From NCBI RefSeq assembly GCF_900327775.1, contig NZ_OUMZ01000007.1, positions 310,115-374,114 of the forward strand: 64,000 nucleotides of DNA, written 5' to 3'. Within the stretch, counting starts at the first letter, position 1. Every line of letters starts with the position of its first letter. Origin of the DNA: Roseovarius sp. EL26 (GTDB lineage: Bacteria; Pseudomonadota; Alphaproteobacteria; Rhodobacterales; Rhodobacteraceae). This document shows positions 5,656 through 54,314 of the stretch, piece by piece. Position numbers and translations under genes: made by a program. The notes beneath the pieces are model-generated. The model had not been told where the DNA came from. It saw nothing but the letters and a program-made list of their open reading frames with translations, and ran no database searches.

Positions 5656-6432
5656 ATGACCACGCAAATTCAAAACGCTGAGGCCTTTGCAGCCCTGCAT
5701 GTTAAGGGGCAGCCAGTGGTCCTATTTAACATCTGGGATGCTGGCAGTGCCAGGGTCGTGTCCGAGGCGGGCGCCACTGCGATTGCAACGGGCAGTGCAC
5801 CTGTGGCCATGGCGCAGGGGTATGCGGATGGGCAGCACATCCCCTTGGAAGAGGCGTTGGCAAATGCAGCAAGGATTGTAAGGGCTGTTGATGTTCCGGT
5901 CAGTCTTGATTTTGAGGGGGCATATGCGACGGATGCCGAAGGGATTAAAGCCAATGTAACCCGCGCATTGGACACTGGTGTTGTGGGCTTTAATTTTGAG
6001 GACCAAGTGATTGGCAGCTCTGATCTGCATCCAGTTGAGGTTCAAGCCACGCGGGTGAAGGCCATGCGCATGGCGTGCGAGGACGCAGGTATTCCTGCCT
6101 TTATCAATGCGCGTACGGATCTGTTTTTGAAAGCAGCGCCCGAGGATCATTCCGAGGCGATGCTGGATGAGGCTATCGCCCGAGCCAAAGCCTATGCGGA
6201 GGCAGGGGCCAGCGGGTTCTTTGCGCCCGCATTGAAAGATGAAGTGATGATTGCCAACCTGTGCGCGGCGGTTGAGTTGCCAGTGAACATCATAGCTCTG
6301 CCGGACACGCCGGAAAATAGTAGGTTGGCAGAGCTGGGAGTTGCTCGGATCAGCTATGGTCCGGTGCCGTACAAGAAAATGACCGCGTGGCTGGGTGATC
6401 AGGCGAAACAGGCGTTGGAAAGCCTGAGCTGA
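5656..6432 (+). CDS. isocitrate lyase/PEP mutase superfamily protein
   Basis: A 258-residue TIM-barrel protein of the isocitrate lyase/phosphonopyruvate mutase superfamily. The seen features are FNIWDAGSARVV near the N-terminus, the metal-binding DFEGAY region and the FINARTD strand. The KKCGH loop of true isocitrate and methylisocitrate lyases is absent, so this belongs to the PEP-mutase-like branch, whose members include oxaloacetate decarboxylases and C-C lyases of unknown substrate. A strong ribosome site (AAAGGGGGATC) precedes the start. The gene stands alone, about 40 bases before the next ORF on the same strand. Confidence 0.85.
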   Translation: MTTQIQNAEAFAALHVKGQPVVLFNIWDAGSARVVSEAGATAIATGSAPVAMAQGYADGQHIPLEEALANAARIVRAVDVPVSLDFEGAYATDAEGIKANVTRALDTGVVGFNFEDQVIGSSDLHPVEVQATRVKAMRMACEDAGIPAFINARTDLFLKAAPEDHSEAMLDEAIARAKAYAEAGASGFFAPALKDEVMIANLCAAVELPVNIIALPDTPENSRLAELGVARISYGPVPYKKMTAWLGDQAKQALESLS

Positions 6433-6471
6433 ATGGGTCATGAAGAGCAGTGAGTTATTGGAGGTAGGGCA

Positions 6472-7110
6472 ATGCGAGGTCCGAAGCTGACCAGGCGGAA
6501 ATGGATTGGGGCAGCTCTTGCCAGCCTTTTTGCAGGGCGTGGAACCGCATTGTTTGCTGCCAATTACCGACGAATTCCAACAAAGTATATTGCGGCGCTG
6601 GCACCCGAGGGGGCGACGTCGGGAAGCGGGGCGGAAACCTGGGGTATTTGGCATCAAGATCCCGGCCCAATCGGGGTTTGGTTGAAGTATTATCAGGCCC
6701 TGCGTAGCGTCGGTGGGATCGGGCCGACAGGCTGGCGGTTTGATATTGATGACTGGTGGTTGGATGAAAACGGCCTGATCATGAAAGCGCCGGAGTTTCC
6801 AATATCTGCGGGGCAATACTATGTCACCAATGGCGAAGAACATATTGCGTTGCTAACGGTTGACCCCCCTGATGAGGAAGGTCGCCAGAGTTGGTCGTTG
6901 AGTGATGATAAAACGATTGCCAATGTGACCCATGGGCCTTGTCGGTCTGCGCGGTATACCCCGGTGGGGGAAACGGAAACCTGCTCTCCTGAGAATGCAA
7001 ACCGTGATGTCTTTCCGCTTAAACCGGGCGAAAGCCCACCTTTGGTGTCTGGGTGTCGCAAGAAAGATTACGCAGTGTTGATTGTCTTTGGTGTGCCCGT
7101 TGCAGGATGA
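6472..7110 (+). CDS. hypothetical Tat-exported protein
   Basis: A 212-residue protein of unknown function. The N-terminus carries a twin-arginine type signal: TRRKWIGAALASLFAG, followed by a small-residue region ending in AA. The mature part is rich in Trp, Gly and Pro and has paired cysteines near residues 150-165 and 200. The pattern GPIGVWLKYYQ and WRFDIDDWWLDENGLIMK is distinctive, but I cannot tie it to a named family. Tat export would suggest folding or cofactor loading before secretion; that is an inference from the signal only. Confidence 0.7.
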   Translation: MRGPKLTRRKWIGAALASLFAGRGTALFAANYRRIPTKYIAALAPEGATSGSGAETWGIWHQDPGPIGVWLKYYQALRSVGGIGPTGWRFDIDDWWLDENGLIMKAPEFPISAGQYYVTNGEEHIALLTVDPPDEEGRQSWSLSDDKTIANVTHGPCRSARYTPVGETETCSPENANRDVFPLKPGESPPLVSGCRKKDYAVLIVFGVPVAG

Positions 7111-7193
7111 TTTTCTGACCGGAATTCTGATGATTTGTGGTAGGTCTGTGTATGATACGAATGTGCCGTCCCTTATAAAGAAACGAGGATACC

Positions 7194-7886
7194 ATGCATA
7201 TCGGGTTGATTGGTGGCATAGGGCCAGCGGCAACAATCGCCTATTATCGCCGACTGGTTGAGGTTTTTAAGGCGGAAGACTTGCCTTTGAAGCTAACCAT
7301 TGTCCATGCGGATGTTTCAGCTTTGGCAAGCAATGCAACATCGGGCCGCCGTAACGCACAGGCCGAGATATTTGTGAAGCACCTTATGCAGTTAAAAGGC
7401 GCGGGGTGCGATATGGCGACGATCACAGCACTGACCGGGCATTTTTGTTATGACGAGGTGGCAGCATTATCGCCCCTGCCAGTCATGAGCGCGATCGATC
7501 CCGTCGATGAGTATTGCGCACAGCAGGGCATAGATCGCATTGGTTTGCTGGGCAGCCCATCTGTTCTAACCACAAAACTGTTTGGACGTTTGCAGAAAGT
7601 GCACGCGGTTGTGCCCCAGACTGGGGTGGCAGAATTGGGAGACACTTATATGAAAGTGGCCCTGTCAGGCGAATGCGCGCAAGCTGATCGTGATCTGTTT
7701 TTTGCTGCGGGCCAACGCATGATTGATGATCAGGGGGCAGAGGCAATTTTGCTTGCTGGCACTGACTTGGGGTTGGCTTTTGAAGGGCAGACCCCGGGGT
7801 TTCCGGTGATTGATGCGCTTGAAATTCATGTGGCTGCAATGGTCGATCTGATCCGTAATGAGCAGGTCGCGCTGCGATCGCATTAG
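7194..7886 (+). CDS. aspartate/glutamate racemase-fold protein lacking both catalytic cysteines
   Basis: The N-terminus IGLIGGIGPAATIAYYRRL is diagnostic of the aspartate/glutamate racemase superfamily, and the length (230) is normal. The two catalytic cysteines are missing. The first motif, normally IPCNTAHYFYDE, reads ITALTGHFCYDE, with Ala in place of Cys. The second, normally LGCTEL, reads LAGTDL, with Gly in place of Cys. A Cys occurs six residues after the first site but is not in the usual position. The two-base acid/base racemisation mechanism therefore cannot operate as in the family. A good ribosome site (ACGAGG) precedes the start. It stands alone and converges on the Hint gene. 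Confidence 0.85.
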   Translation: MHIGLIGGIGPAATIAYYRRLVEVFKAEDLPLKLTIVHADVSALASNATSGRRNAQAEIFVKHLMQLKGAGCDMATITALTGHFCYDEVAALSPLPVMSAIDPVDEYCAQQGIDRIGLLGSPSVLTTKLFGRLQKVHAVVPQTGVAELGDTYMKVALSGECAQADRDLFFAAGQRMIDDQGAEAILLAGTDLGLAFEGQTPGFPVIDALEIHVAAMVDLIRNEQVALRSH

Positions 7887-7894
7887 ATCGCAGT

Positions 7895-9010
7895 TTAGCC
7901 AATTAAACCCAGATTATTCCGTTGGTGACGCTTAATCATTTTACGGGCTTTTGGCCCGGACACCAACGGGAGGGCAGGATTGTCGACCATATCGCCTAAT
8001 GCATCAGCCCCGAAAATCGACAGCAATTCTTCTCTTGCCACGTCAGAAAGTGCAGTCAGTGCCATTGGGCCGGGTAACAAGGTTTCTGCCGTGATGCCCT
8101 CGACCTTGATGAGGCTATGCTGGTCAAGTGCAATGTGCACATAGGAAAAAGGGGATAAGCTGTCGTCGCGAAAAATCCCGGGTAATGGAAGCAGATCCTT
8201 TGCCGCGATCAGTACCTGATCTGCATGAAACATTCGTTTTGCAATCGGGCCAGAGATTGCGATCCGATGTTGTCTGGATACGCGCAGATCACGCTGAGGT
8301 AGTCCTGACCCAAGTGCACCCGCTGAGATCACCACAGGGCGGATGTTGGGTTGCTTGGAAAGGCGGCGAGGGGATATGTACTGCCGTCCTATCCAGCGTA
8401 TTTTCTGCAGCGATTGACCGACTGTCTGAACCGTTGTGCCAATATCAACGGCGCCGATCGGCTGTAACCCAGTGGCTGTTAGGATCTGAACATCATCACA
8501 ATAGCATACGGGCGCCCCTTCGGTTACAGGTTCAAAGATTGGTGATGTCGGGTCGTCGGCAGAAAACTGTATGGTATAGGTCGAGGCATTCGGCCCGGTC
8601 GGCGGGTTGATTGTGGTCGATTGGGCATTCATAGCCGGGCCGTCATTAGCCGTGATTTGCTGAGTGCCGCCACCGATATCCCAAAACTGTTCAACTGTTG
8701 AATTGGCTGTATCCACAAGGGCAACCGCTTCATAGTTGATGCCCGTTGCCCCGCCGTCAGGGTCGGTCAGCAGAATATTGAAATCCGGTCGTCCGATGAC
8801 ATAAACTGTGCTCCCATCCGGCAGAGTGGTTGGTGTCAATGCAGGGTCATTCAATGTGACGACCAGACCAACATTGCCGGTGAAATTGTAAAACCCAACC
8901 TGGAAATCTGCAGGATTTTCGCCGGGCGCAAGCGTGATTTCCACAAATTCACGCGTGCCACTGCTTGCGGCGTAAGCGTTGGAATAGTGAAGTTCACTTA
9001 TAAAGGCCAA
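7895..9010 (-). CDS. Hint-domain protein (Hedgehog/intein-type autoprocessing fold)
   Basis: A 371-residue protein. Residues 1-160 form a lamin-tail-like/beta-rich N-terminal part (ISELHYSNAYAASSGTREFV). Residues ~168-330 form a Hint domain of the kind common in Rhodobacterales: a Cys-containing start (VCYCDDVQILTATG), a central DLRVSRQHRIAI with the family His, and a closing VEGITAETLLPGPMAL. The first motif deviates from the usual CFTPGT pattern, having CYCDD in that place. Family members are thought to be self-processing or secreted proteins, and their role in this group is not known. No signal peptide is evident. The gene has its own promoter region, about 210 bases from the transglycosylase. 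Confidence 0.85.
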   Translation of the reverse strand: MAFISELHYSNAYAASSGTREFVEITLAPGENPADFQVGFYNFTGNVGLVVTLNDPALTPTTLPDGSTVYVIGRPDFNILLTDPDGGATGINYEAVALVDTANSTVEQFWDIGGGTQQITANDGPAMNAQSTTINPPTGPNASTYTIQFSADDPTSPIFEPVTEGAPVCYCDDVQILTATGLQPIGAVDIGTTVQTVGQSLQKIRWIGRQYISPRRLSKQPNIRPVVISAGALGSGLPQRDLRVSRQHRIAISGPIAKRMFHADQVLIAAKDLLPLPGIFRDDSLSPFSYVHIALDQHSLIKVEGITAETLLPGPMALTALSDVAREELLSIFGADALGDMVDNPALPLVSGPKARKMIKRHQRNNLGLIG

Positions 9011-10503: not shown

Positions 10504-10535
10504 AAATAAAAATGGACGATCGTCCATTTTTATTT
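10504..10535. promoter_or_regulatory. 32-bp perfect palindrome, candidate TetR operator (copy 1)
   Basis: A perfect inverted repeat centred between 10519 and 10520, with the core ATGGACGATCGTCCAT and A/T-rich flanks that continue the symmetry. The same core, with AA/TT on either side, recurs at 19251-19270 in front of the ABC transporter operon beside a TetR-family regulator. It lies 38 bases upstream of the aminotransferase start and about 160 bases upstream of dddQ, which is read the other way. Confidence 0.85.
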
Positions 10536-10572
10536 TATCCTTCTGCAAAATGACATTTTGAAGGGGGTGACC

Positions 10573-11967
10573 ATGCTGACGAACGGGACCGAATTTGACA
10601 CGCTGCGAGAGTGGGATGGAGATAATGTATTGCACCCTTGGGAAAACTCAGCCGGGGTGCGTGACCGATCTAGAACGTTTGTTGAGAATGCAAAGGGGAT
10701 CTATGTTTACGCAGAAGATGGCAAACGGTTGCTGGATGGGCCGGGCGGCATGTGGTGCGTTCAGGTCGGCTATGGCCGACAGGATCTGGCGCAGGCAATG
10801 GCGGATCAGGCTATGCAGCTGGGATATTATTCTGCCTTCAATAATTCCAACTCTGCCGCGGCACAACTGGCGCATGAGATTGCGCAGCGCACACCGGGGG
10901 ATTTGAATACCGTTTTCTTTACGACGGGTGGATCCACAGCCGTAGATAGCGCACTGCGGTTTATTCATTACCGCAACAATGTGCTGGGACAGCCGAACAA
11001 GAAGAAGGTGATTTCCAGGCAAAAAGCCTATCACGGTAGTACCTATCTTGCTGCAACGATGAGCGGCAAGGAACGCGACAAAGGCTGGATGGATGTGGCC
11101 CATGACTTGGTGCACTTCCTGCCAGATGTGAACCCGTACCGGCGTGATCTCAACCTGAGCATAGAGCAATTTTTAGACGAAAAGGTTGCTGATCTTGAGG
11201 CCGCGATTGTTGATCTTGGCGCAGACAATGTTGCAGCGTTTATAGCTGAACCGATCTTGTCCTCTGGCGGAGTTATCGTGCCGCCTGCGGGCTATCATCA
11301 GCGCTGCCTTGAGGTGTGTCACAAGCATGATGTGCTTTATATCTCGGATGAAGTGGTTACTGGTTTTGGCCGTTTGGGACATTGGTTTGCCAGCGAAGAG
11401 GTGTTCGGCATCGTGCCCGATATCATCACTTGCGCCAAAGGCATGACATCGGGGTATGTTCCCATGGGCGCAGCCATTATCGCAGACCATTTGGTACAAG
11501 ACATTGTTGATGCGGGTCAGGATGCGACGTTTAGCAATGGCTATACCTATTCTGGTCACCCGGTGAGCGCTGCGGCCGGGTTGAAAAATATTCAGATATT
11601 CGAGGATGAAAACATTCTGGATCACGTGCGCGAGGTCACACCCCATTTTCAGGCACGTCTACATGCGTTGCGTGATATGCCAATCGTTGGCGATACGCGG
11701 GGAATGGGTCTGGTCGGATGTGTGGAATGTGTGGCAGACGAAAACTCACCGAATCCACTGGCGCTTGACCATGCGGTCGGTGCCCGTATCGATGCACGTT
11801 GTCAGGAGCTGGGGCTGTTGGTGCGTCCGATTGTGAATATGTGTGTGTTTTCGCCACCTCTCATCATTACCAAAGGCCAGATTGATGAGATGTTTGACCT
11901 GCTGGAACAAGGGATTTCGCTTGCGACAGAGGATTTGCGCCGCGAAGGTCTTTGGCAGGCGAGTTAA
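10573..11967 (+). CDS. class III PLP-dependent aminotransferase
   Basis: A fold-type I omega-aminotransferase of about 464 residues. Visible elements are [14 protein letters not shown] near residue 60, the PLP phosphate-binding [26 protein letters not shown] with the PLP-contacting Asp, and the Schiff-base lysine in [15 protein letters not shown]. The start ATG is chosen for the excellent AAGGGGGTGA upstream; an in-frame TTG at 10558 is not needed. Family members act on putrescine, beta-alanine, taurine or other omega-amino compounds. Its operator is shared with the transport and demethylation operon, so it probably acts on the amine or amino acid left after N-demethylation. A strong hairpin terminator follows. 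Confidence 0.9.
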
Positions 11968-11972
11968 GCCAA

Positions 11973-12001
11973 AGCGCCTGACGGCAGGATCGTCAGGCGC
12001 T
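11973..12001. terminator. bidirectional hairpin terminator
   Basis: A 10-bp perfect stem, GCGCCTGACG / CGTCAGGCGC, extended by one A-T pair, with a 7-base loop. It lies between the convergent aminotransferase and Rieske genes and is followed by a short T-rich run (ACGTTTTAA). It can serve both transcripts. Confidence 0.8.
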
Positions 12002-12021
12002 ACGTTTTAAATGGTGAAACT

Positions 12022-13221
12022 TCAGATCATGCTGAGATAGCTGTGGTAGAACGTCAAAATTCCCCATTCCATTTCTGATAACGGACCCGGTTCAAACCGG
12101 TGCGAATTGACGCCCTCTTGGTTATGACGAATGATCCGCTCGTCGTCCTGAGAGGTGACATGCCAGAGCCATGTCAGATCCTCCTTGTTATAGTCTTTGC
12201 CGTCATCGGCATCGCCGCGGACATACCAAACGATCTGAATATCCGTTTCCTGCAATGCCGTAGGTACAAAGCGGTAGCCGACAACATGATCTGCGTAGAT
12301 TAAGAAGTTGTTTAGTGGTCCGATTTGCATGTCAGTGGCCCCACCATCAAATCCGGTGAGATGCCCCAGAATGGGAGCAAGAGGCTCGCCACCTTTGCTG
12401 CCGGTTTGATAGCCTTCGAACAGTGGATAGCGCCGCCAGTAGACATCTGCGGCTGGGCCTGCAGAATTTTCACCGGTTTGATCAATTTCGTCGATCTTTA
12501 GCCCAATGGCGTTTGAGCGTTCGCGCAAGGGCTCTACCAAACCCTCCATCTCAGTCGGGTCTTTCAGGCTATGGCTGCGCGAATATTCCTTATGCGACGG
12601 CGCGCAATGGTAACACTCCATGTAGTTTTCAAGCGCGAGCTTCCAGTTGGCAGGCACGGGGTACGACGCCTCGTGCGCAATTTTCATATTGGCAAAATCG
12701 AATGGCGCAGCATGAGATTGCAGCTCTGCCAATCCCGCATCAATTGGCGGTGCTTGGTCCGAGGCGCAGACAAAAATGAGGCCCTCAAAAATGCGGATCT
12801 GTGCCGGGAACAACCCATATTTCGAGGGATCAAAGTCAGGCCCCATAGCCCGGCCACCACGCAGCTTGCCGCTTAGATCAAAAGTCCAGGCGTGGTAAGG
12901 GCAGGAAAACACACGGGCATTGCCCTGCTTTTCAGTGCACACACGCGAACCCCGATGGCGACACACATTCATATGTGCGTGCACTTCGCCTTCACGGTCG
13001 CGGACCACGATGATGCTTTCCTTTGCATAATCGAACAGGAAATAATCACCGGGATGGGGCACCTGACTGACATGACCAACCCAGATCCAACTGTGGTTCC
13101 AGTAGGCCTTGATGTCATTCTCATAGACATCTTCAGATGTATAAAAATGGCGTGGCAGGGCGAACCCGTCTTGCCGGGCTTCAACTAAGTCACGCATCAG
13201 TTGCAAATCATCTTGCGCCAT
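12022..13221 (-). CDS. Rieske non-heme iron oxygenase, alpha subunit (N-demethylase-like)
   Basis: A 399-residue ring-hydroxylating-oxygenase alpha subunit. The Rieske 2Fe-2S ligands are Cys87-x-His89 and Cys107-x2-His110 (VCRHRG and SCPYHAW). The catalytic iron site shows ENYMECYHCAPSHKEY with His206 and His211. Relatives such as GbcA, Stc2 and carnitine monooxygenase remove methyl groups from quaternary amines, and the neighbours fit that role. It is the last gene of the six-gene operon. Its ATG overlaps the stop of the upstream flavoprotein by one base, so translation is coupled. A separate reductase is not seen in the operon; the upstream flavoprotein or an unlinked reductase could supply electrons. 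Confidence 0.9.
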   Translation of the reverse strand: MAQDDLQLMRDLVEARQDGFALPRHFYTSEDVYENDIKAYWNHSWIWVGHVSQVPHPGDYFLFDYAKESIIVVRDREGEVHAHMNVCRHRGSRVCTEKQGNARVFSCPYHAWTFDLSGKLRGGRAMGPDFDPSKYGLFPAQIRIFEGLIFVCASDQAPPIDAGLAELQSHAAPFDFANMKIAHEASYPVPANWKLALENYMECYHCAPSHKEYSRSHSLKDPTEMEGLVEPLRERSNAIGLKIDEIDQTGENSAGPAADVYWRRYPLFEGYQTGSKGGEPLAPILGHLTGFDGGATDMQIGPLNNFLIYADHVVGYRFVPTALQETDIQIVWYVRGDADDGKDYNKEDLTWLWHVTSQDDERIIRHNQEGVNSHRFEPGPLSEMEWGILTFYHSYLSMI

Positions 13222-15290
13222 CAGAGCACCTCATCCGTTTCTAAAGAGATCAGTTCGCGTTGGAAGTATTGTTGATCCACCTCTTCAGGGGATCGTTCGA
13301 AATCACGTGCGGCTTGATGGCCTGCAAAAACAGCGTCGACGATCAACCCGGGTGCTGCGGCGTCGCCGATCAGCTCCAAAGTCGTCAGGCCCAGATTTTG
13401 TAGTGACGTGAAAAGGCCTGTTTCCCGGTGGCGTTCTGTGACCAGAACGGCCGAGGCACACTGGATGTCAGTTGTTCGTCCGGTATAGGCACAGCTCAGT
13501 TGCGCCCCCTCTGGATTAAGCTTCGCCAAAGACTGGTTGCAATGGATCTCAACGCCGATCTCAATCAGCCGGGCTTGGATGCGGTGTTGCTCTAACGTGT
13601 TGGCAGTGAAGCCCGAAACCATGGTGTCAGGGGTCACAAAGATAACCCTTCGACCTTGGGCGGCCAGCTTTTCGGCGATGACACCGGCAAGATAAATCTG
13701 GTCATCATCATAGACCATGACCGGACCATCGGGAGGTGTTTTACCAATCATGATGTCATCTGGCGTCAGGATATGCGCGTCTGTGGCAACATGCGGTCGG
13801 TGCCGCTGCGTGCTGCGCCCGATCCCGTCGGTGCGCCATGTTGCGCCTGTGGCGACAAAGACGTGTTTGATCCCCAGTTCGGCGACTTGTTCGGCGTCCA
13901 GTTTACTGTCAGTGAACATCTGCACGTTGGCACGTTGTTTGAGATCATTCAGGCGATAATCCATCACCCGTGCCCAGGCATTCAGGCCCGGGAGCTGGCT
14001 TTCACGCAGGACACGCCCGCCGTACTCTGACCGGGCTTCGGCCAGAGTGACGCCATAACCGCGACGGGCCAGTTGCATGGCACATTCGAGGCCCGCAGGG
14101 CCGCTACCAATGACCAATGTATCAGTGTCTGATACTTTTGGAGCGATCACCTCTGGATGCCAGCCGCGACGCCATTCTTCGCCCATAGTTGGGTTCTGGG
14201 TGCAGCGGATCGGGATTCCGATATTGTCAGAGGCGACACAAATGTTGCAACCGATGCATTCGCGAATTTCGTCAATCCGACCTTCTTTTATCTTGTTTGG
14301 TATAAAGGGATCCGCGATCGAGGGGCGCGCCGCACCGATCAGATCGACAATACCTTTTTTGACCATTGATAGCATCATGTCAGGCGAGGTCAGGCGGCCA
14401 ACGCCAACCACAGGCTTGTTCGTAACCTTTTTTACATAAGCTAAATAGTCGTTTTGATACCCATCTTGCGGCTGAAACCGGGTAGTGGCGGAATCGTTTG
14501 ACCAATCGGCGATGTTCACATCCCATAGGTCAGGAAGGTCAGCGAGCAACTCAACAACAGCGCGGCCTTCCTCGGAGGCCTGCATACCGTCGGGGCCCTG
14601 CATTTCATCGATGGCAAAGCGGAGGGCAACGGCGCAATCCCCGCCTGCGATTTCGAGCGTATCTTCAAGCAGCTCACGGGTCAGGCGAACACGATTTTCC
14701 AGTGATCCGCCGTATTCGTCGCTGCGTTGGTTCATGTGTGGCAGCATGAAGTGTTGCGCGATTGTCATGTTGTGACCGGCGTAGACGTAGATGATGTCAA
14801 ACCCGGCCTCTTTGGCGCGTTTTGCAGCGTCACGGTGCCATTGTCGCAAATTGCGAATATCGGCTTTGTCCATGGCGCGAGCCTGTTTGGGATGCGCCAT
14901 GTCGATGGACATTTCGGATGGCGCAAGAATAGGCGCACGGCTCAGGTGGTTTTGCGCGTGATTGCCGTTGTGGACCAGCTGAACGGCGGCAAGCGCGTCA
15001 TGGGCGTGCACCGCCTCAGTCATCAGACGCAGGGCGGGCACATCGCGCGCATCCCAAAGCCGTCCTTCGGCAAAAGGCGCCAGGTCCGATGTTGGGTGGA
15101 TTTCCGTTTCTTGATTTGAGACCACTGCCCAGCCGCCGGCTGCTTTCATGCCGCGCACGCCGGCATCAGCACGGGGGCGGACATGCCCCAGACCGGTGCA
15201 ATGCGGGACCTGATAGAAACGGTTCTTGGCCGTTACCGGCCCAATTTTAACCGGTTCAAACAGCAGGCCATATGGATTTGCGTCAGACAT
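13221..15290 (-). CDS. TMADH-family iron-sulfur flavoprotein (amine N-demethylase/dehydrogenase type)
   Basis: A 689-residue fusion of an Old-Yellow-Enzyme-like FMN barrel (1-~370), a 4Fe-4S site and an FAD/NAD-binding domain (from ~390; VIGSGPAGLECAMQLARRG). The cluster ligands are Cys345, Cys348, Cys351 and Cys363 (ECIGCNICVASD...IRCTQN). Cys31 in NRFYQVPHCTGLG matches the cysteine that forms the covalent 6-S-cysteinyl-FMN in trimethylamine dehydrogenase. That makes it a TMADH, dimethylamine/histamine dehydrogenase or DgcA-like enzyme rather than a 2,4-dienoyl-CoA reductase. It probably removes methyl groups after the Rieske enzyme; the exact amine cannot be told. Confidence 0.88.
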   Translation of the reverse strand: MSDANPYGLLFEPVKIGPVTAKNRFYQVPHCTGLGHVRPRADAGVRGMKAAGGWAVVSNQETEIHPTSDLAPFAEGRLWDARDVPALRLMTEAVHAHDALAAVQLVHNGNHAQNHLSRAPILAPSEMSIDMAHPKQARAMDKADIRNLRQWHRDAAKRAKEAGFDIIYVYAGHNMTIAQHFMLPHMNQRSDEYGGSLENRVRLTRELLEDTLEIAGGDCAVALRFAIDEMQGPDGMQASEEGRAVVELLADLPDLWDVNIADWSNDSATTRFQPQDGYQNDYLAYVKKVTNKPVVGVGRLTSPDMMLSMVKKGIVDLIGAARPSIADPFIPNKIKEGRIDEIRECIGCNICVASDNIGIPIRCTQNPTMGEEWRRGWHPEVIAPKVSDTDTLVIGSGPAGLECAMQLARRGYGVTLAEARSEYGGRVLRESQLPGLNAWARVMDYRLNDLKQRANVQMFTDSKLDAEQVAELGIKHVFVATGATWRTDGIGRSTQRHRPHVATDAHILTPDDIMIGKTPPDGPVMVYDDDQIYLAGVIAEKLAAQGRRVIFVTPDTMVSGFTANTLEQHRIQARLIEIGVEIHCNQSLAKLNPEGAQLSCAYTGRTTDIQCASAVLVTERHRETGLFTSLQNLGLTTLELIGDAAAPGLIVDAVFAGHQAARDFERSPEEVDQQYFQRELISLETDEVL

Positions 15291-15353
15291 TCGCGCGCAT
15301 TCTTTCTTGTGGAGAGCTGGGAACCCAAAAGGGTTCCCGATGTTATATTGAGA

Positions 15354-16412
15354 TCAAAATCCGGCTTTGATCCGCTCGAATTCTTTCAACATGCGACCTT
15401 CAAGTTTGGGCTCAACAGCGTCAAAGAACAGGCTTTTTTCAAAGAAGCTGTCAACATCGGCAAACCCGTAGGTTTCAATCAGGCTTTGATCGGCTGATTT
15501 GAAGGCCTCCGCATTCGAGTGCGCGTAGCCCCAATTTTCGATGATGTACTTGCCGCTTGCTTCGTCGCTCAGGGCGTTGAGCATGTCGTAGATTTGATCA
15601 TCGGATTGTTTTGCACTCTTCAGATGGACATAGCCGCAGACCCAGGTTGCGATGCCCTTGTCAGTGTCGCGCATCATCACGGCAGGCGTTTCGTTCCAGA
15701 TGAGGTTCAGCTCGGATTGGTTCCAGCCCCAACCCATGGTGACCTCACCGCTGGCAATCGCTTGATCCAGTTGACCCGCATCAGACCAGTAAAACCGGAC
15801 ATTTTGATGTATTGAGCGCAAGAAATCAGAGGCCTTTTGGAACTCTTCATCGTTCATGTTGGTGTAGCTGGAGGCCCCGGTTGCCAATGCTGCCAGAGCA
15901 TAGGCGCTGGATGCTGCATCCGGCACTGCAATCTTTCCCTGATAGGCGGGATCTGCCATCAGTTGAATAGATACGTCGTCGCCAGAAATCATATCCGTGC
16001 GATAGATCAGCCCGGTGTTTCCCCACTCAAACGGTACCATGTAAGTTTCACCATCAATGATCACGCCGTCGACATCCTTGATCTGCGGCAAAAGCTTGTC
16101 CCAGTTGTCCAGACGGCTCGTGTCGATGGGCATTATCAGATCGGCAGCAACCCATTTACGCAAAGCATCGGTACAAGGGTGGGCAAGGTCGGCCTCAAAG
16201 CCTGATTGCAGCTTGGTAAAGGCTTCTTCGACGCTGCCAAAATAGGTATAGCTTGGCGCGCCGCCGTGCTTTTCCACGTAAGAGCCATAAAAGCCCTGAT
16301 CCTCATAACCAGACCAATCGAAGATCACCAAATCTTCGGCCCCGGCGTAGGCAATTGAACTGGTTAGCCCTGCCACAGCAGCGCTGACGAGTGATAATGA
16401 TGTTTTTGTCAT
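15354..16412 (-). CDS. ABC transporter periplasmic substrate-binding protein (PotD/SBP_bac_8 type)
   Basis: The periplasmic receptor of the island's importer. The signal peptide is MTKTSLSLVSAAVAGLTSSIAYA. The mature protein starts DLVIFDWSGYEDQGFYGSYVEK, the typical opening of polyamine-like binding proteins, and later has VPFEWGNTGLIYRTD. The start at 16412 has a perfect GGGAGG ribosome site; an upstream in-frame ATG at 16436 is unlikely. Length 352 fits PotD. The name does not prove a polyamine ligand, because binding proteins of this group also carry other cationic amines. Its neighbours argue for an N-methylated compound. Confidence 0.88.
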   Translation of the reverse strand: MTKTSLSLVSAAVAGLTSSIAYAGAEDLVIFDWSGYEDQGFYGSYVEKHGGAPSYTYFGSVEEAFTKLQSGFEADLAHPCTDALRKWVAADLIMPIDTSRLDNWDKLLPQIKDVDGVIIDGETYMVPFEWGNTGLIYRTDMISGDDVSIQLMADPAYQGKIAVPDAASSAYALAALATGASSYTNMNDEEFQKASDFLRSIHQNVRFYWSDAGQLDQAIASGEVTMGWGWNQSELNLIWNETPAVMMRDTDKGIATWVCGYVHLKSAKQSDDQIYDMLNALSDEASGKYIIENWGYAHSNAEAFKSADQSLIETYGFADVDSFFEKSLFFDAVEPKLEGRMLKEFERIKAGF

Positions 16413-16432
16413 GATTTTTCCTCCCAGATGTT

Positions 16433-17533
16433 TCATGTATCGCGTTTGCCAAGATCGATGACCGAGGCGCTTTGAACACCCAGCCAGACCGCGTCTCCGC
16501 GCTTGTGGTCGACTGTGTGAAAATAGTTTGGAACAGCAACGGAAATTGGGTCAGGGACGCCATCAATCCGCACATAGTAGTGAACACTTTCACCGTAAAA
16601 GGCGACGTCACTGATGCTGCCTTGGGCATAGGCATCGTACCCATCTGGTTGCGCCGCAGCAATTTCCAGCTGTTCCGGCCTGACCCCTACCAGCAGGGCG
16701 CGGTCATGGGTGGCAACATTTGGGTTCACGCTGATGTCCAGCGCCCCAAACCCCTGCAGGTCGATATTCAGCGTTTCGTTTTTTTCAGACAGAACATTGG
16801 CGTGCAAAAAATTCATGCCGCCAATAAACGACGCCACTTCGCGATTGCAGGGCCGGGCATAGAGCACTTCTGGCTTATCAACCTGCTTGAGCTCGCCTGC
16901 GAACATCACGCCAATTCGGTCGGACATGGTCATCGCTTCATATTGGTCATGGGTGACCATCACAAACGTGATACCAAGCTTTTGCTGAAGCCGCCGCATT
17001 TCCAGCTGCATGGCTTCGCGCAGGTTTTTGTCCAGGGCAGATAGGGGTTCATCCAGCAGCAATACCTTGGGCCGCATGACAAGCGCCCGTGCCAGCGCGA
17101 CCCGCTGGCGTTGTCCGCCGGATAACTCATTTGCCTTGCGGTTTTCCAGCCCGCCCAGCTCCACCATTTCCAAGGCTTCTGCCACACGTTCTTTGATATC
17201 CTGCTTGGTCAACCCGCCTTTGCGCAGGCCAAAGGCCACGTTATCGCCGACATTCAGATGCGGGAAAATCGCATAGCTTTGAAAGACCATATTGGTGGGG
17301 CGTTTGTTGGCGGGAATATCCTCCATCAACTGGCCATCGATGCGAATTTCACCCTCTTCATGGTCTTGAAAACCAGCGATCATTCGCAACGCGGTGGTTT
17401 TACCACATCCTGATGGCCCGAGCAGTGAAAAGAACTCACCCTCACGCAGGTTCAGGTTCATATTGCGCACGGCAACAAAGGAACCGAACCGCTTTTCCAC
17501 TCCCTGGATCTCGATGATGTTCTGGTCACTCAT
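16433..17533 (-). CDS. ABC transporter ATP-binding protein (PotA type)
   Basis: The energising subunit of the importer, on the cytoplasmic face. The Walker A motif GPSGCGKTTALRMIAG, signature LSGGQRQRVALARAL, Walker B VLLLDEPLSALD and switch VMVTHDQYEAM are all intact. A C-terminal TOBE regulatory domain (about residues 280-360) contains LLVGVRPEQL. Length 366 is normal. It is third in the order permease, permease, ATPase, binding protein; the binding-protein start lies 20 bases downstream of its stop. Confidence 0.93.
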   Translation of the reverse strand: MSDQNIIEIQGVEKRFGSFVAVRNMNLNLREGEFFSLLGPSGCGKTTALRMIAGFQDHEEGEIRIDGQLMEDIPANKRPTNMVFQSYAIFPHLNVGDNVAFGLRKGGLTKQDIKERVAEALEMVELGGLENRKANELSGGQRQRVALARALVMRPKVLLLDEPLSALDKNLREAMQLEMRRLQQKLGITFVMVTHDQYEAMTMSDRIGVMFAGELKQVDKPEVLYARPCNREVASFIGGMNFLHANVLSEKNETLNIDLQGFGALDISVNPNVATHDRALLVGVRPEQLEIAAAQPDGYDAYAQGSISDVAFYGESVHYYVRIDGVPDPISVAVPNYFHTVDHKRGDAVWLGVQSASVIDLGKRDT

Positions 17534-17552
17534 AGGGTTGAGGTCCTTTGTT

Positions 17553-18347
17553 TCATTGCGTTGATTTGGTGGAACGACGGCGGAAATACTCTGCGACCAG
17601 CAGCAAGATCACTGAGGACAACAAAAGCAGTGAACCTAGCGCCAATGTGTTGGGCAGCTTTGCAGGAAAGCGGATCTGGCTCCAGATATAGACGGGTAGG
17701 GTGGGTTGATTGCCCGACAAGAAGAAGGCCAGCACAAATTCATCGAAAGAGACAGTGAATGTCACCAAAAGGCTGGCAATAATGCCCGGCGACACGATCG
17801 GTAAGGTGACACGGCGAAAGACACCAACGACTGTTTCACCCAGATCAAATGCGGCTTCTTCAAGCGATTGATCAAAGTCATCAAAGGCTGACTTCATGAT
17901 TGAAACGGCGAAAGGTAAGGCCAAAAAGACATGGCCCAATATGACGGTGGTCAGGCTGGGCTTCAGCCCCATGCTGATGAACATGACAAGCATCGAGCTG
18001 GCGACAATAATGCCGGGAATGACCAGCGGCAGCATAACCAGACCCTCAGACAGCTCGCGTGCTTTAAAACGGTATCGTACATAGGCCCGTGCAGCGAACA
18101 GTCCAAGAGATGTCGACATCACCGCCGTGACACTGCCAACGATGAGTGAATTGACCATAGCCTGCAGCAAGGTTTCCTGCGCGCCCAACTGTCCATACCA
18201 TTTGAGCGTAAAGCCCTTGAGCGGGAAGGCGACAATAGTGCCATCATTGAATGAGAACAGCGGCAGCAGCAGCACCGGCAGGTATAGAAACACCAGATAG
18301 AGCAGGGCGTATAGATAAAGCCCGGAAATACGCGGAAGCCCAATCAT
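17553..18347 (-). CDS. ABC transporter permease (PotC type)
   Basis: Inner-membrane permease of about 264 residues with six predicted helices. It opens with YALLYLVFLYLPVLLLPLFSF. The ATPase-contact EAA loop is EEAAFDLGETVVGVFRRVTLPIVSPG. The start MIGLPRIS at 18347 is chosen because it gives an ATGA overlap with the stop of the upstream permease, and the 34 residues upstream do not belong to the family. Coupled translation keeps the two permeases in balance. Confidence 0.92.
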   Translation of the reverse strand: MIGLPRISGLYLYALLYLVFLYLPVLLLPLFSFNDGTIVAFPLKGFTLKWYGQLGAQETLLQAMVNSLIVGSVTAVMSTSLGLFAARAYVRYRFKARELSEGLVMLPLVIPGIIVASSMLVMFISMGLKPSLTTVILGHVFLALPFAVSIMKSAFDDFDQSLEEAAFDLGETVVGVFRRVTLPIVSPGIIASLLVTFTVSFDEFVLAFFLSGNQPTLPVYIWSQIRFPAKLPNTLALGSLLLLSSVILLLVAEYFRRRSTKSTQ

Positions 18348-19207
18348 CGGATACGTCTCCCCAACATTCTGACCAGAAGAACGTAACCAATGGCAACCAG
18401 TCCGACGGACATCATGGCCATCAGTGAAAGCGTGGCCCCCAAGGGCCAATTGTTCGCCGCGCCAAATTGCACCTGAATGAGATTGGCGATCATCTTACCT
18501 TGCGATCCACCCACAAGGGCAGGGGTTACATAATCGCCGACAGTCGGAATAAAGATGATCAGGCTCGCGGCGATGATGCCGGGCAGCGTTAGCGGAAGGG
18601 TGACGCGCAAAAACCGCTCCAACTTGTTGCAGCCAAGATCAGTTGCCGCTTCCAGAAAACTGCGATCAATTTTTTGCAGGCTGACGTAGATTGGCAGGAT
18701 GGCGAAAGGGGCCCAAGCATGTGCCAGCGTCAGCATGACCGCGAACTCATTATAGAGCAAAAATGTCAGGGGTTCAGAAATGACACCAACAGACAATAGG
18801 GCTGAGTTCATCACTCCGTTAAATCCAAGGATCAGCTTCCAACTGAAAACCCGAAGCAGGTAGCTGCTCCAGAATGGAATGGTGATCAGCAACAGCCATG
18901 TGGTTTTTTTCTGTGTGCGAAAGGCAATGAAATACGCGATCGGATAAGCCAGCGCGACCGTGATCATGGTCACGCCGCCTGCGATCATAATGGAGCGTAG
19001 CAATAAAAACCGAACAAGCGGGTCGTTTATCGCCTCTTTGTAGTTGGCAAGCGTGAAGGTGCGGTCAATTTCTACATAGGTTTGCGTCCAGAACGAATAG
19101 ACCACCAGAATGCCCAGAGGGATCACCACCAGCAGCCCAACATACAGCGATGCAGGCGCGCTTAGCGCGATGCCCTTGGCGGCCTCAGTTTTCAGATACC
19201 GGCTCAT
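18344..19207 (-). CDS. ABC transporter permease (PotB type)
   Basis: First gene of the six-gene operon; 287 residues with six helices, starting with a cytoplasmic tail (MSRYLKTEAAKG) and then LYVGLLVVIPLGILVVYSF. The EAA loop is LEAATDLGCNKLERFLRVTLPLTLPG. The ATG lies 44 bases downstream of the palindrome at 19251-19270, so the whole operon is probably controlled there. Confidence 0.92.
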   Translation of the reverse strand: MSRYLKTEAAKGIALSAPASLYVGLLVVIPLGILVVYSFWTQTYVEIDRTFTLANYKEAINDPLVRFLLLRSIMIAGGVTMITVALAYPIAYFIAFRTQKKTTWLLLITIPFWSSYLLRVFSWKLILGFNGVMNSALLSVGVISEPLTFLLYNEFAVMLTLAHAWAPFAILPIYVSLQKIDRSFLEAATDLGCNKLERFLRVTLPLTLPGIIAASLIIFIPTVGDYVTPALVGGSQGKMIANLIQVQFGAANNWPLGATLSLMAMMSVGLVAIGYVLLVRMLGRRIR

Positions 19208-19250
19208 GAAACCTCATTGGCTTGGTGTCATTCTGCATCATGAAAACACA

Positions 19251-19270
19251 AAATGGACGATCGTCCATTT
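19251..19270. promoter_or_regulatory. 20-bp perfect palindrome, candidate TetR operator (copy 2)
   Basis: AAATGGACGATCGTCCATTT, perfectly symmetric about 19260/19261. The 16-bp core is identical to the one at 10512-10527. It sits in the divergent region between the transporter operon (start 19207) and the TetR gene (start 19398). One dimer bound here could repress both the operon and the regulator's own gene. Confidence 0.85.
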
Positions 19271-19397
19271 AAAGATGGTATTTTCAACACCCTTGAGTCA
19301 AGGATAAAGTTCAGGCGTGATCTTGCGAAAGCACAGACAGATGCGCATAACTACCAATAAAAGATAGAAAAAGACTATAAAAATAGGCTTCAAGCTC

Positions 19398-20048
19398 GTG
19401 GAACAAAGCGGAAAACGTCAACAAACCAGAGAGAACAATCGTCTTGCGCTGATTGAAGCCACGCTGGATTCTGTTGCTGAATTGGGGGTGTCCGCCACAT
19501 CAGTCAGTGAGATTATCCAACGGGCGGAATTATCGCGCGGCATGGTTCACTTGCATTTTGGTGGCAAGGATAACCTGATCGATCAGGCTGTGCGCCACTC
19601 AAGCGAGCAATACTATAATGGTCTGGAAGAGCTGCTGCAGTTGGCCGGGCCCAGTGGTCAGGAACGCATCGCGATGATTGTGAGGGGGGACCTTGGTGAA
19701 GAGGTGCTCAACCATCGAAACGTAAGCATCTGGTACGCCTTTCGTGGCGAGGCCCGCAATCGAGCGGCGGTTGCCGCATACTCGGATACCCGCGATGGTA
19801 AACTACGCAACATGGTGCACAATGCTTTCCTGCGTATTGCGGGTGAAACGCAATCTTCTGATCCCGCGTCGGTGGCCCGCGACGCAACACATGGGACACT
19901 GGCAATGCTCGAAGGGATGTGGACGGACTATTTATTACACCCGACCTCTTTTGATCGCCAAGAAGCAATGCGCATCGTTTTTCGCTTTTTGAGTGCAATG
20001 TTCCCAAAACATTTTGATCTGCAAGGTGCCATTCTGGGTAAGGGATAA
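19398..20048 (+). CDS. TetR-family transcriptional regulator, BetI-like
   Basis: A 216-residue repressor. Residues ~12-58 form the TetR DNA-binding helix-turn-helix (TLDSVAELGVSATSVSEIIQ ... LSRGMVHLHFGGKDNLI). The C-terminal ligand domain resembles that of BetI, with VSIWYAFRGEARNRAAVAAY matching the family's conserved tryptophan-rich helix. The start is a GTG. It is divergent from the transporter operon, with the palindrome between them, the usual arrangement for autoregulation. The likely inducer is the imported amine or a breakdown product; this is inferred from BetI and the context. Confidence 0.9.
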   Translation: MEQSGKRQQTRENNRLALIEATLDSVAELGVSATSVSEIIQRAELSRGMVHLHFGGKDNLIDQAVRHSSEQYYNGLEELLQLAGPSGQERIAMIVRGDLGEEVLNHRNVSIWYAFRGEARNRAAVAAYSDTRDGKLRNMVHNAFLRIAGETQSSDPASVARDATHGTLAMLEGMWTDYLLHPTSFDRQEAMRIVFRFLSAMFPKHFDLQGAILGKG

Positions 20049-53120: not shown

Positions 53121-54314
53121 ATGACAGAGATATTTACCGGCAGTTTCACCCAGCAAGAACCCATCTCTCCGGAGGCAATTGCCGCCGCAGTCGAGGTGAT
53201 GCAGAGCGGTCGTCTGCACCGCTATAACCTTTCACCTGACGAAGTTGGGGAAACCGGTCTGCTGGAGCAGGAGTTTGCCGCCTACGTTGGGGCGAAATAC
53301 GCGCTGGCGGTGGCCTCTGGCGGCTATGCGTTGGCGACGGCCTTGCGGGCCATTGGGGTAAAGCCCGGCGAGAAGGTCCTGACCAATGCCTTTACACTGG
53401 CCCCGGTGCCCGGAGCTATTGCCAGCATGGGCGGTGTGCCGGTGTTTGTCGGTGTGACTGAAGATCTGACGATTGATCTGGAAGATCTGGCCGCCAAAGT
53501 GAGCCAAGCCAAGGTGCTGATGCTCAGCCATATGCGCGGGCATCTGTGCGACATGGACCGGTTGATGGAGATCTGCAATGCCGCCGGTGTGACCGTGGTT
53601 GAGGATTGTGCCCACACCATGGGGGGCAGCTGGAATGGCGTGCCATCAGGTCGCCATGGGCTAATCGGGTGTTATTCAACGCAGACCTACAAGCATATGA
53701 ACTCGGGCGAGGGTGGGCTGTTTGTCACTGACGATGATGAAGTCATGGCACGGGCATTGATCCTGTCGGGATCGTATATGCTTTATGGCCGCAATGGGAC
53801 TGTGCCACCGGCCGAGGTGATGGAACGCGTGAAATACGACACGCCGAATGTGTCGGGCCGGATGGATCATCTGCGCGCGGCGATCTTACGGCCGCAACTG
53901 GCCAATTTGGCTGCGAAATGTGCGACGTGGAATGCGCGCTATGATGTGGTGGAAGCCGAGTTGCGGGGTACACCCGGTCTGGCCATCGTGGAGCGGCCAG
54001 AACAAGAGATCTATGTCGGATCGTCCATTCAGTTTTTGCTGCTGGATTGGTCAGATGTGGCGATTGCCGATGTGATTGATCGCTGCCTGCAGCGCGGGGT
54101 CGAGTTGAAGTGGTTTGGCGGGGCAGAACCCACCGGATTTACCAGCCGCTATGATAGTTGGCGTTATGCGCCGTCTGAACGGATGCCGGCCAGTGACCGC
54201 GTGTTGAAGGGCATTGTCGATATGCGCCTGCCGCTGACTTTCAGTGTTGAAGATTGCGGATTAATTGCGCGGATCATTAGATCAGAGGTAAGTGCCGTCT
54301 ATCAGGCAATGTGA
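53121..54314 (+). CDS. DegT/DnrJ/EryC1/StrS-family aminotransferase
   Basis: A 397-residue PLP enzyme of the sugar-aminotransferase type. GKYALAVASGG-like residues (GAKYALAVASGGYALATAL) bind PLP phosphate. VVEDCAHTMGG has the PLP-contacting Asp, and the Schiff-base Lys is in YSTQTYKHMNSGEGG. Such enzymes transaminate nucleotide-linked keto sugars, but the gene is not in a sugar cluster here. The start at 53121 (MTEIFTG) is the most plausible; the ribosome site is weak. A further in-frame ATG at 53064 exists. Confidence 0.88.
   Translation: MTEIFTGSFTQQEPISPEAIAAAVEVMQSGRLHRYNLSPDEVGETGLLEQEFAAYVGAKYALAVASGGYALATALRAIGVKPGEKVLTNAFTLAPVPGAIASMGGVPVFVGVTEDLTIDLEDLAAKVSQAKVLMLSHMRGHLCDMDRLMEICNAAGVTVVEDCAHTMGGSWNGVPSGRHGLIGCYSTQTYKHMNSGEGGLFVTDDDEVMARALILSGSYMLYGRNGTVPPAEVMERVKYDTPNVSGRMDHLRAAILRPQLANLAAKCATWNARYDVVEAELRGTPGLAIVERPEQEIYVGSSIQFLLLDWSDVAIADVIDRCLQRGVELKWFGGAEPTGFTSRYDSWRYAPSERMPASDRVLKGIVDMRLPLTFSVEDCGLIARIIRSEVSAVYQAM

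Follow-up and report, generated by a model that had tools for sequence, protein, structure and literature searches.

We analysed 64,000 nucleotides of the genome of Roseovarius sp. EL26 (contig NZ_OUMZ01000007.1, positions 310,115 to 374,114; hereafter the window), in which two identical palindromes lie beside a class III aminotransferase gene and a six-gene operon predicted to import and demethylate an N-methylated compound. A scan of the window located the core 16-mer ATGGACGATCGTCCAT at 10512-10527 and 19253-19268, exactly where a preliminary description of this DNA had placed it. The 16-mer given there stands, but site 1 is in fact larger and forms a perfect palindrome of 32 nucleotides. 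Gene identities were checked against NCBIfam and Pfam, which confirmed the kinds of genes named earlier, that is DddQ, the class III aminotransferase, the Rieske oxygenase, a flavoprotein of the trimethylamine dehydrogenase (TMADH) type, a Pot-type transporter and a BetI-like TetR protein. The features of the locus are the following.

10504..10535, no strand: predicted operator site 1, a 32-nucleotide perfect palindrome (AAATAAAAATGGACGATCGTCCATTTTTATTT) with its core at 10512-10527, 45 nucleotides before the ATG of the aminotransferase gene
10573..11967, + strand: class III aminotransferase of the PRK07036 group (NF005447, 675.6 bits, above the cut-off of 618)
12022..13221, - strand: Rieske oxygenase, GbcA/Stc2-like, a predicted quaternary-amine demethylase (PF00355 and PF00848), encoded by the last gene of the operon
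13221..15290, - strand: flavoprotein resembling TMADH and histamine dehydrogenase, a predicted tertiary/secondary N-methyl dehydrogenase (nearest PDB entry 3k30, 726 bits)
15354..16436, - strand: solute-binding protein related to PotD/PotF, from profile matches and pocket comparison
16433..17533, - strand: ATPase of an ATP-binding cassette (ABC) transporter, PotA-type (TIGR01187, 364 bits against a cut-off of 355.6)
17553..18347, - strand: ABC permease, PotC-type (PF00528), whose open frame reaches 18449
18344..19207, - strand: ABC permease, PotB-type (permease B), encoded by the first gene of the operon, which adjoins the operator in many orthologous loci
19251..19270, no strand: predicted operator site 2, a 20-nucleotide perfect palindrome with its core at 19253-19268, between the permease and TetR genes
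19296..19301, - strand: -35 box TTGACT of the operon promoter, starting 33 nucleotides before the operator core
19398..20048, + strand: TetR-family repressor, BetI-like (PF00440 and PF13977), with the helix SRGMVHLHF at residues 46-54, including His51

Inspection of the sequence points to ATG 10573 as the most probable start of the aminotransferase; this codon is preceded by GAAGGGGG and lies in a frame open from TTG 10558. The most likely start of the PotC-type permease, ATG 18347, was deduced from the ATGA overlap and the codon was checked. The ATPase passes the cut-off of the potA subfamily, yet it stays below that of the PotA equivalog (375.8 versus 482 bits). The nearest PDB entries to the Rieske oxygenase are 3n0q and 3vca/4qup. 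Both the TetR_N helix-turn-helix and the C-terminal ligand domain of the TetR protein are present above their cut-offs. On its other side, site 1 is followed by dddQ, identified by PF16867 (191.5 bits).

Conservation and position of the palindromes

At up to 3 mismatches, the window contains three matches to the 16-mer, against a mean of 0.26 and a maximum of 2 in 100 dinucleotide shuffles; the third copy (54013-54028, 3 mismatches) was left as a probable chance occurrence. The two exact copies are the only ones in the genome of 3,907,904 bases, and one further place with 2 mismatches is found on another contig. The comparison covered 533 distinct genomes, namely 146 relatives and a family sample of 394 genomes, nearly all of different genera, less the 7 present in both sets. 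Labels beginning with L and G denote loci and genomes, respectively; L046 and L134 are one stretch, and other loci may share strains. The exact 16-mer occurs in 9 of the 146 relatives, Roseovarius sp. EL26 included, while the 16-mer written backward, used as a control, occurs in none. In the eight others, it is located between the TetR ortholog and permease B (five), between the TetR ortholog and the flavoprotein (one) or the Rieske gene (one), or directly upstream of the aminotransferase (one). At L006/L132, it stands upstream of the same aminotransferase alone. The family sample added three genomes, each with the exact 16-mer between TetR and permease B. In total, 13 exact sites are found in 12 of the 533 genomes, and all 13 adjoin orthologs of the TetR gene, of the operon or of the aminotransferase. 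The regulon is patchy: within the family sample, a site with at most one mismatch lies beside such orthologs in eight new genomes.

In an alignment anchored on the operator, the motif TTGAC starts 29-34 nucleotides before the operator core in 28 of 29 operon promoters, the exception being L051, which places the operator on or behind the -10 region, as befits a repressor site. A consensus promoter scan of the window called neither promoter, the -35 box having emerged from the comparison. Site 2 was also flagged as terminator-like on the minus strand, which would suit palindromes that are transcription terminators or mobile repeats rather than operators. We find this barely credible: terminator-like flags number 13 versus 12.4 in shuffles and are not in excess, both palindromes lie at promoters in a genome with two exact copies only, and the conservation concerns the bases, not the hairpin alone, with palindromes that covary with the repressor.

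The preliminary description had also placed dddQ at the edge of the regulon, which would tie the cleavage of dimethylsulfoniopropionate to the pathway. Site 1 does lie in the intergenic region shared by dddQ and the aminotransferase gene, its core being 166 nucleotides before the dddQ start, but it is close to the start of the aminotransferase and far from that of dddQ. The distance between dddQ and the operon was searched with PF16867 above the family cut-off, 100 of the 146 relatives being covered. Matches were found in 49 of these 100 relatives, 44 of them above the cut-off. In the six relatives that have the operon site and dddQ on one contig (G003, G009, G016, G029, G050 and G051), the two are at least 266 kilobases (kb) apart; a match below the cut-off in G051 lies 174 kb from the site, and in others dddQ and the operon are on different contigs, some of them short. 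The 80 flavoprotein-homologue loci, inspected up to 10 kb on each side or less at contig ends (the best 80 of 584 relatives in the contig scan), gave no match to dddQ with an E-value of 1e-3 or lower. dddQ was seen adjoining the aminotransferase only in the Roseovarius sp. EL26 genome, and its linkage with the operon or the aminotransferase is not conserved. We rejected dddQ as a regulon member on its absence from these loci and its distance, and consider such a role very unlikely; from the compared loci, it looks like a chance neighbour of site 1, and the proposed link is not borne out. Upstream of dddQ, positions 5656-7886 of the window hold genes of the phosphoenolpyruvate-mutase and aspartate/glutamate-racemase types, the latter adjoined by a Hint-domain protein at 7895-9010.

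Covariation of recognition helix and operator

Residues 46-54 of the window TetR, which we take from knowledge of the TetR family to be its recognition helix, were compared between regulators together with the sites beside their genes. Rows with fewer than 100 aligned TetR residues (120 in one comparison) were dropped before counting, L046/L134 are one stretch, and the window's own TetR makes up one row. Regulators with the helix SRGM[IV]HLHF (in one case SRGLIHFHF) have an ATGGAC-N4-GTCCAT-like site, identical at 13 or more of 16 positions, upstream in 33 of 34 rows, and most of them are only 42-76% identical to the window TetR. The single miss of this class, L188, lies at a contig end; in the same genome, an operator adjoins permease B where another contig ends (L197). 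The helix S[RQ]GM[IV]NLHF goes with ATGAAC-type sites in 7 of 7 regulators (13-15 of 16 positions identical to ATGAACGATCGTTCAT), of which five lie beside stand-alone aminotransferase genes in two comparisons and the other two beside such a gene in a third. Regulators with SQGVAVFYF, beside or near an aminotransferase, have an exact TTGAGCGCTCAA in 12 of 14 cases and imperfect versions in L053 and L127. The 30 regulators outside the first two helix classes match the window operator at 8-11 of 16 positions. Where an aminotransferase has its own regulator, the operator differs to match; the window aminotransferase, which stands apart and has none of its own, carries the operator of the operon.

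These covarying helices and operators, together with the exact sites adjoining the expected genes in 13 of 13 cases, support the earlier claim of a TetR regulon comprising the operon and the aminotransferase. That one TetR controls both through two identical palindromes is a strong prediction. The His/Asn switch in the helix, with its matching operators, moreover offers a clean test case for change of DNA specificity in the TetR family.

Two sets of loci were observed alongside. In L047, L048, L163, L164, L165, L185 and L186, the aminotransferase comes with a private S[RQ]GM[IV]NLHF TetR and an ATGAAC-type site. In L124, L136, L140, L166-L168, L170-L172, L176 and L178, a second BetI-like class lies beside or near the aminotransferase, with the operator TTTGAGCGCTCAA(A); this class makes up a sister regulon, and the binding proteins that go with it are a subclass of their own.

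Between the window and L047, L048, L050 and L159 (Ruegeria and Leisingera), the TetR, the binding protein and the transporter genes share 74-86% identity, while the flavoprotein and the Rieske enzyme share 90-91% with those of L123, probably Roseovarius albus. At the nucleotide level, the change from one pattern of identity to the other falls at about 15.1-15.4 kb, between the binding protein and the flavoprotein. Judged from these identities, the operon is a mosaic of two lineages, in which a Leisingera/Ruegeria-type regulator and transport block would have been joined to a Roseovarius albus-like demethylase block by recombination at 15100-15400. Such a swap of demethylase blocks, with the operator kept in common, agrees with the existence of a regulon.

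The predicted pathway and its substrate

For the aminotransferase, 120 of 6066 homologues were listed, and for the flavoprotein, 120 of 8000; in one comparison of loci, gene matches covering less than 40% of the query were left out of the counts. The aminotransferase lies inside the operon, after the Rieske gene, in L122, L123, L135 and L139. In L042, an MttB-family methyltransferase stands between the two, and Leisingera caerulea has a methyltransferase of the same cluster. This methyltransferase does not reach the cut-off set for the trimethylamine model, and its nearest solved relatives are 2qne and the glycine betaine methyltransferase 9yce. The available text of one study reports MttB-family proteins in glycine betaine demethylation in Ruegeria pomeroyi (PMC12478193). 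The genome of Roseovarius sp. EL26 (G000) encodes 13 MttB-family (PF06253) proteins, none of them in the window operon. Parasedimentitalea marina has a related transporter, with a binding protein 66% identical, next to sarcosine-oxidase-type and MttB-family genes. Rhizobium sp. SL42 combines a related transporter (45%), a Rieske gene and an aminotransferase with adjoining GcvT-like and flavin adenine dinucleotide (FAD) oxidoreductase genes. A homologue on pSymA of S. meliloti carries no annotation in its record. Import, methyl removal and, in most relatives, transamination recur, while the demethylating enzyme varies, the flavoprotein being replaceable by genes of the sarcosine-oxidase and GcvT types. 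The recurrence of import and demethylation with interchangeable demethylases points to an N-methylated, probably quaternary, substrate. Its N-methylation, already claimed in the preliminary description, is well supported by these MttB-type, sarcosine-oxidase-type and GcvT-type partner genes.

We propose the following model. When the substrate is absent, the TetR protein would sit on ATGGAC-N4-GTCCAT at both sites and keep both transcripts off. An N-methylated, very likely quaternary, amine would be imported by the Pot-type ABC transporter, and this substrate or a derivative of it would free the DNA of TetR. The Rieske enzyme would remove the first methyl group and the flavoprotein further N-methyl groups, whereupon the aminotransferase would act on the primary amine thus exposed and yield an aldehyde or a keto compound that enters central metabolism. 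We hold with good confidence the model as a whole, in which a ligand-responsive TetR controls the uptake and N-demethylation operon and the aminotransferase, with dddQ outside; it retains the TetR regulon and the N-methylated substrate of the earlier interpretation and gives up its dddQ link. The sites, their gene-linked conservation, the promoter geometry, the covariation of helix and operator and the co-occurrence of interchangeable demethylases were all computed. We infer the DNA binding, the order of the steps, the inducer and the substrate.

Several results weigh against this model. According to the preliminary description, a palindrome kept apart from these genes in related genomes would refute the regulon. 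None of the 13 exact sites is apart, but 7 of the 15 new family sites at up to one mismatch are (among the 12 with one mismatch, orthologs lie beside five and are absent at seven). The backward control gave only 2 sites in the 394 genomes, so that the seven are not fully explained; the control sequence contains CTAG, a tetranucleotide often rare in bacteria. L211 and L212 keep the half-sites ATGGAC and GTCCAT with no regulon gene within 15.0 and 17.5 kb, respectively; these intact copies (position 9111 in L211, position 8830 in L212) may be due to chance or be further targets. For an 18-mer at up to 2 mismatches, 20 of 30 loci have the orthologs and 10 are apart, the backward control giving 10 sites. 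Among the 30 regulators outside the first two helix classes, nine carry Asn51 within helices of other kinds and lack an ATGAAC-type site, which indicates that the whole helix, not residue 51 alone, tracks the operator. Site 1 is devoid of a clear -35 box, TTGAC being absent from both stand-alone aminotransferase sites (window site 1 and L132), and the operon includes no Rieske reductase gene. Finally, the flavoprotein pocket, E61/W263/D355, is common to 79 of 93 homologues and so says little about this substrate; its interpretation as a diamine pocket was dropped because these 79 homologous stretches carry the same residues.

In the binding protein, the five aromatic pocket residues of PotF/PotD are kept in 21 of the 21 orthologs compared, while in the window type Glu185 and Asp278 of PotF (E171 and D257 in PotD), acids that we take to bind the amine ends, are replaced by Ser and Cys. 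These replacements would favour one quaternary charge over a free diamine. They count against an N-methylated diamine or polyamine as substrate, used by a putrescine-type aminotransferase and a flavoprotein working like histamine dehydrogenase, an alternative that we consider possible though doubtful. In its favour, the transporter is Pot-type, and histamine dehydrogenase is the nearest solved relative of the flavoprotein; in the available text of PMC10180351, enzymes of this type accept agmatine and putrescine. An agmatinase above the cut-off and a PotF-like binding protein also adjoin the operon in Leisingera (L050 and L159), and the gamma-proteobacterial clusters L071/L073 hold an agmatinase, a PotF-like protein and a gene resembling glutamine synthetase/gammaglutamylputrescine synthetase (below cut-offs). 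However, the agmatinase link is seen only in Leisingera and in these distant clusters, the amine-binding acids of PotF are lost, and E61 and D355 are common across the flavoprotein family.

The same pocket, aromatic but deprived of the PotF/PotD acids, would fit an omega-amino-acid betaine such as beta-alanine betaine or gamma-butyrobetaine, with the aminotransferase then acting on beta-alanine or gamma-aminobutyrate. The BetI-like regulator, the GbcA/Stc2-like Rieske enzyme and the MttB partner all belong to betaine chemistry. We nevertheless judge this reading unlikely, as the scanned neighbours, in a scan that was not exhaustive, revealed no malonate- or succinate-semialdehyde dehydrogenase, and in L164 and L180, aldehyde dehydrogenases close to the aminotransferase score best, below cut-offs, as betaine-aldehyde and PuuC types. 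Automatic naming of close aminotransferases is inconsistent: of the 120 listed, 3 are called putrescine aminotransferase and others adenosylmethionine-8-amino-7-oxononanoate aminotransferase. Beta-alanine betaine itself, the guess made in the preliminary description, is possible but not favoured, the evidence speaking neither for nor against it, and a methylated diamine or polyamine is at least as likely.

Speculatively, the exchange of His51 for Asn51 in SRGM-I/V-x-LHF, together with that of one base per half-site, ATGGAC for ATGAAC, may have split an ancestral regulon whose substrates are quaternary N-methylated diamines or polyamines. If this is true, the operon opens a pool of marine dissolved nitrogen so far without assigned genes, and the regulon has been divided between operon and private aminotransferase regulators. 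Methylated nitrogen compounds form a poorly mapped share of marine dissolved organic nitrogen, for which the regulon supplies a concrete gene set and an operator whose exact form marked these genes at 13 of 13 sites. Its named carriers, which include Ruegeria arenilitoris and Leisingera caerulea, are organisms in which induction could reveal the substrate.

Comparison with known systems

BetI1 of R. pomeroyi is described as a choline-responsive repressor in the available text of PMC12442346. The window TetR resembles it in its TetR fold, its BetI-type C-terminal domain and a palindrome that is built on GACG..CGTC and situated near promoter boxes. The window operator (ATGGACG-AT-CGTCCAT) does not match the betI box given there, ATTGACG*CGTCAAT. 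The protein misses the BetI cut-offs (TIGR03384, 89.3 versus 201.3 bits; PRK00767, 92.7 versus 118 bits), and the operon, unlike the BetI system, is without bet genes.

Pseudomonads degrade glycine betaine by the gbcAB/dgcAB/sox route, which, like the predicted window pathway, removes N-methyl groups one after another by means of a Rieske oxygenase and a flavoprotein. In contrast, the window set ends in a class III aminotransferase, uses a Pot-type transporter and has no sarcosine oxidase in its operon, and its Rieske enzyme scores far below the GbcA cut-off (NF058607, 294.5 versus 670 bits). Besides 3n0q, the nearest solved relatives of this enzyme are structures of stachydrine demethylase, 3vca/4qup, which we take to be Stc2; they reach only about 232 bits and belong with a different operon and transporter. 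Compared with the Pot system, the ATPase passes the potA subfamily cut-off, whereas the acids for the amine ends are missing from the binding protein.

The flavoprotein is homologous over its whole length to histamine and trimethylamine dehydrogenases. It keeps, in alignment, C31, C345/C348/C351/C363 and Y170/H173/D266, presumably the flavin mononucleotide (FMN) cysteine, the iron-sulfur cysteines and the catalytic residues, respectively. The aromatic bowl of TMADH is formed by Tyr60/Trp264/Trp355, and the window protein differs from it with E61/W263/D355; the corresponding pocket of histamine dehydrogenase is Gln65/Trp267/Asp358, against Glu61/Trp263/Asp355 here. Of the histamine-binding residues proposed in the available text of PMC10180351 (Gln65, Ile74, Phe77, Glu79, Asn115, Tyr181, Trp267 and Asp358), four of eight are identical in the window protein, which has E61, L70, F73, E75, H111, M175, W263 and D355, and the set as a whole is not shared. 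Tandem flavoprotein paralogues were seen beside Pot-type transporters in L091, L092 and L112, one of them with a Tyr61/Tyr263/Glu266 pocket.

Homarine catabolism likewise concerns a marine N-methylated compound. Homarine was set aside as substrate: Mgd is named as taking part in its route in the available text of PMC13390433, and the operon has no such gene. A description of the operon was not found among the titles and abstracts listed by searches of open-licence literature. As far as its sequences tell, the system misses the cut-offs of BetI and GbcA and differs in operator and partners, yet it would work like BetI-type repression combined with betaine demethylation.

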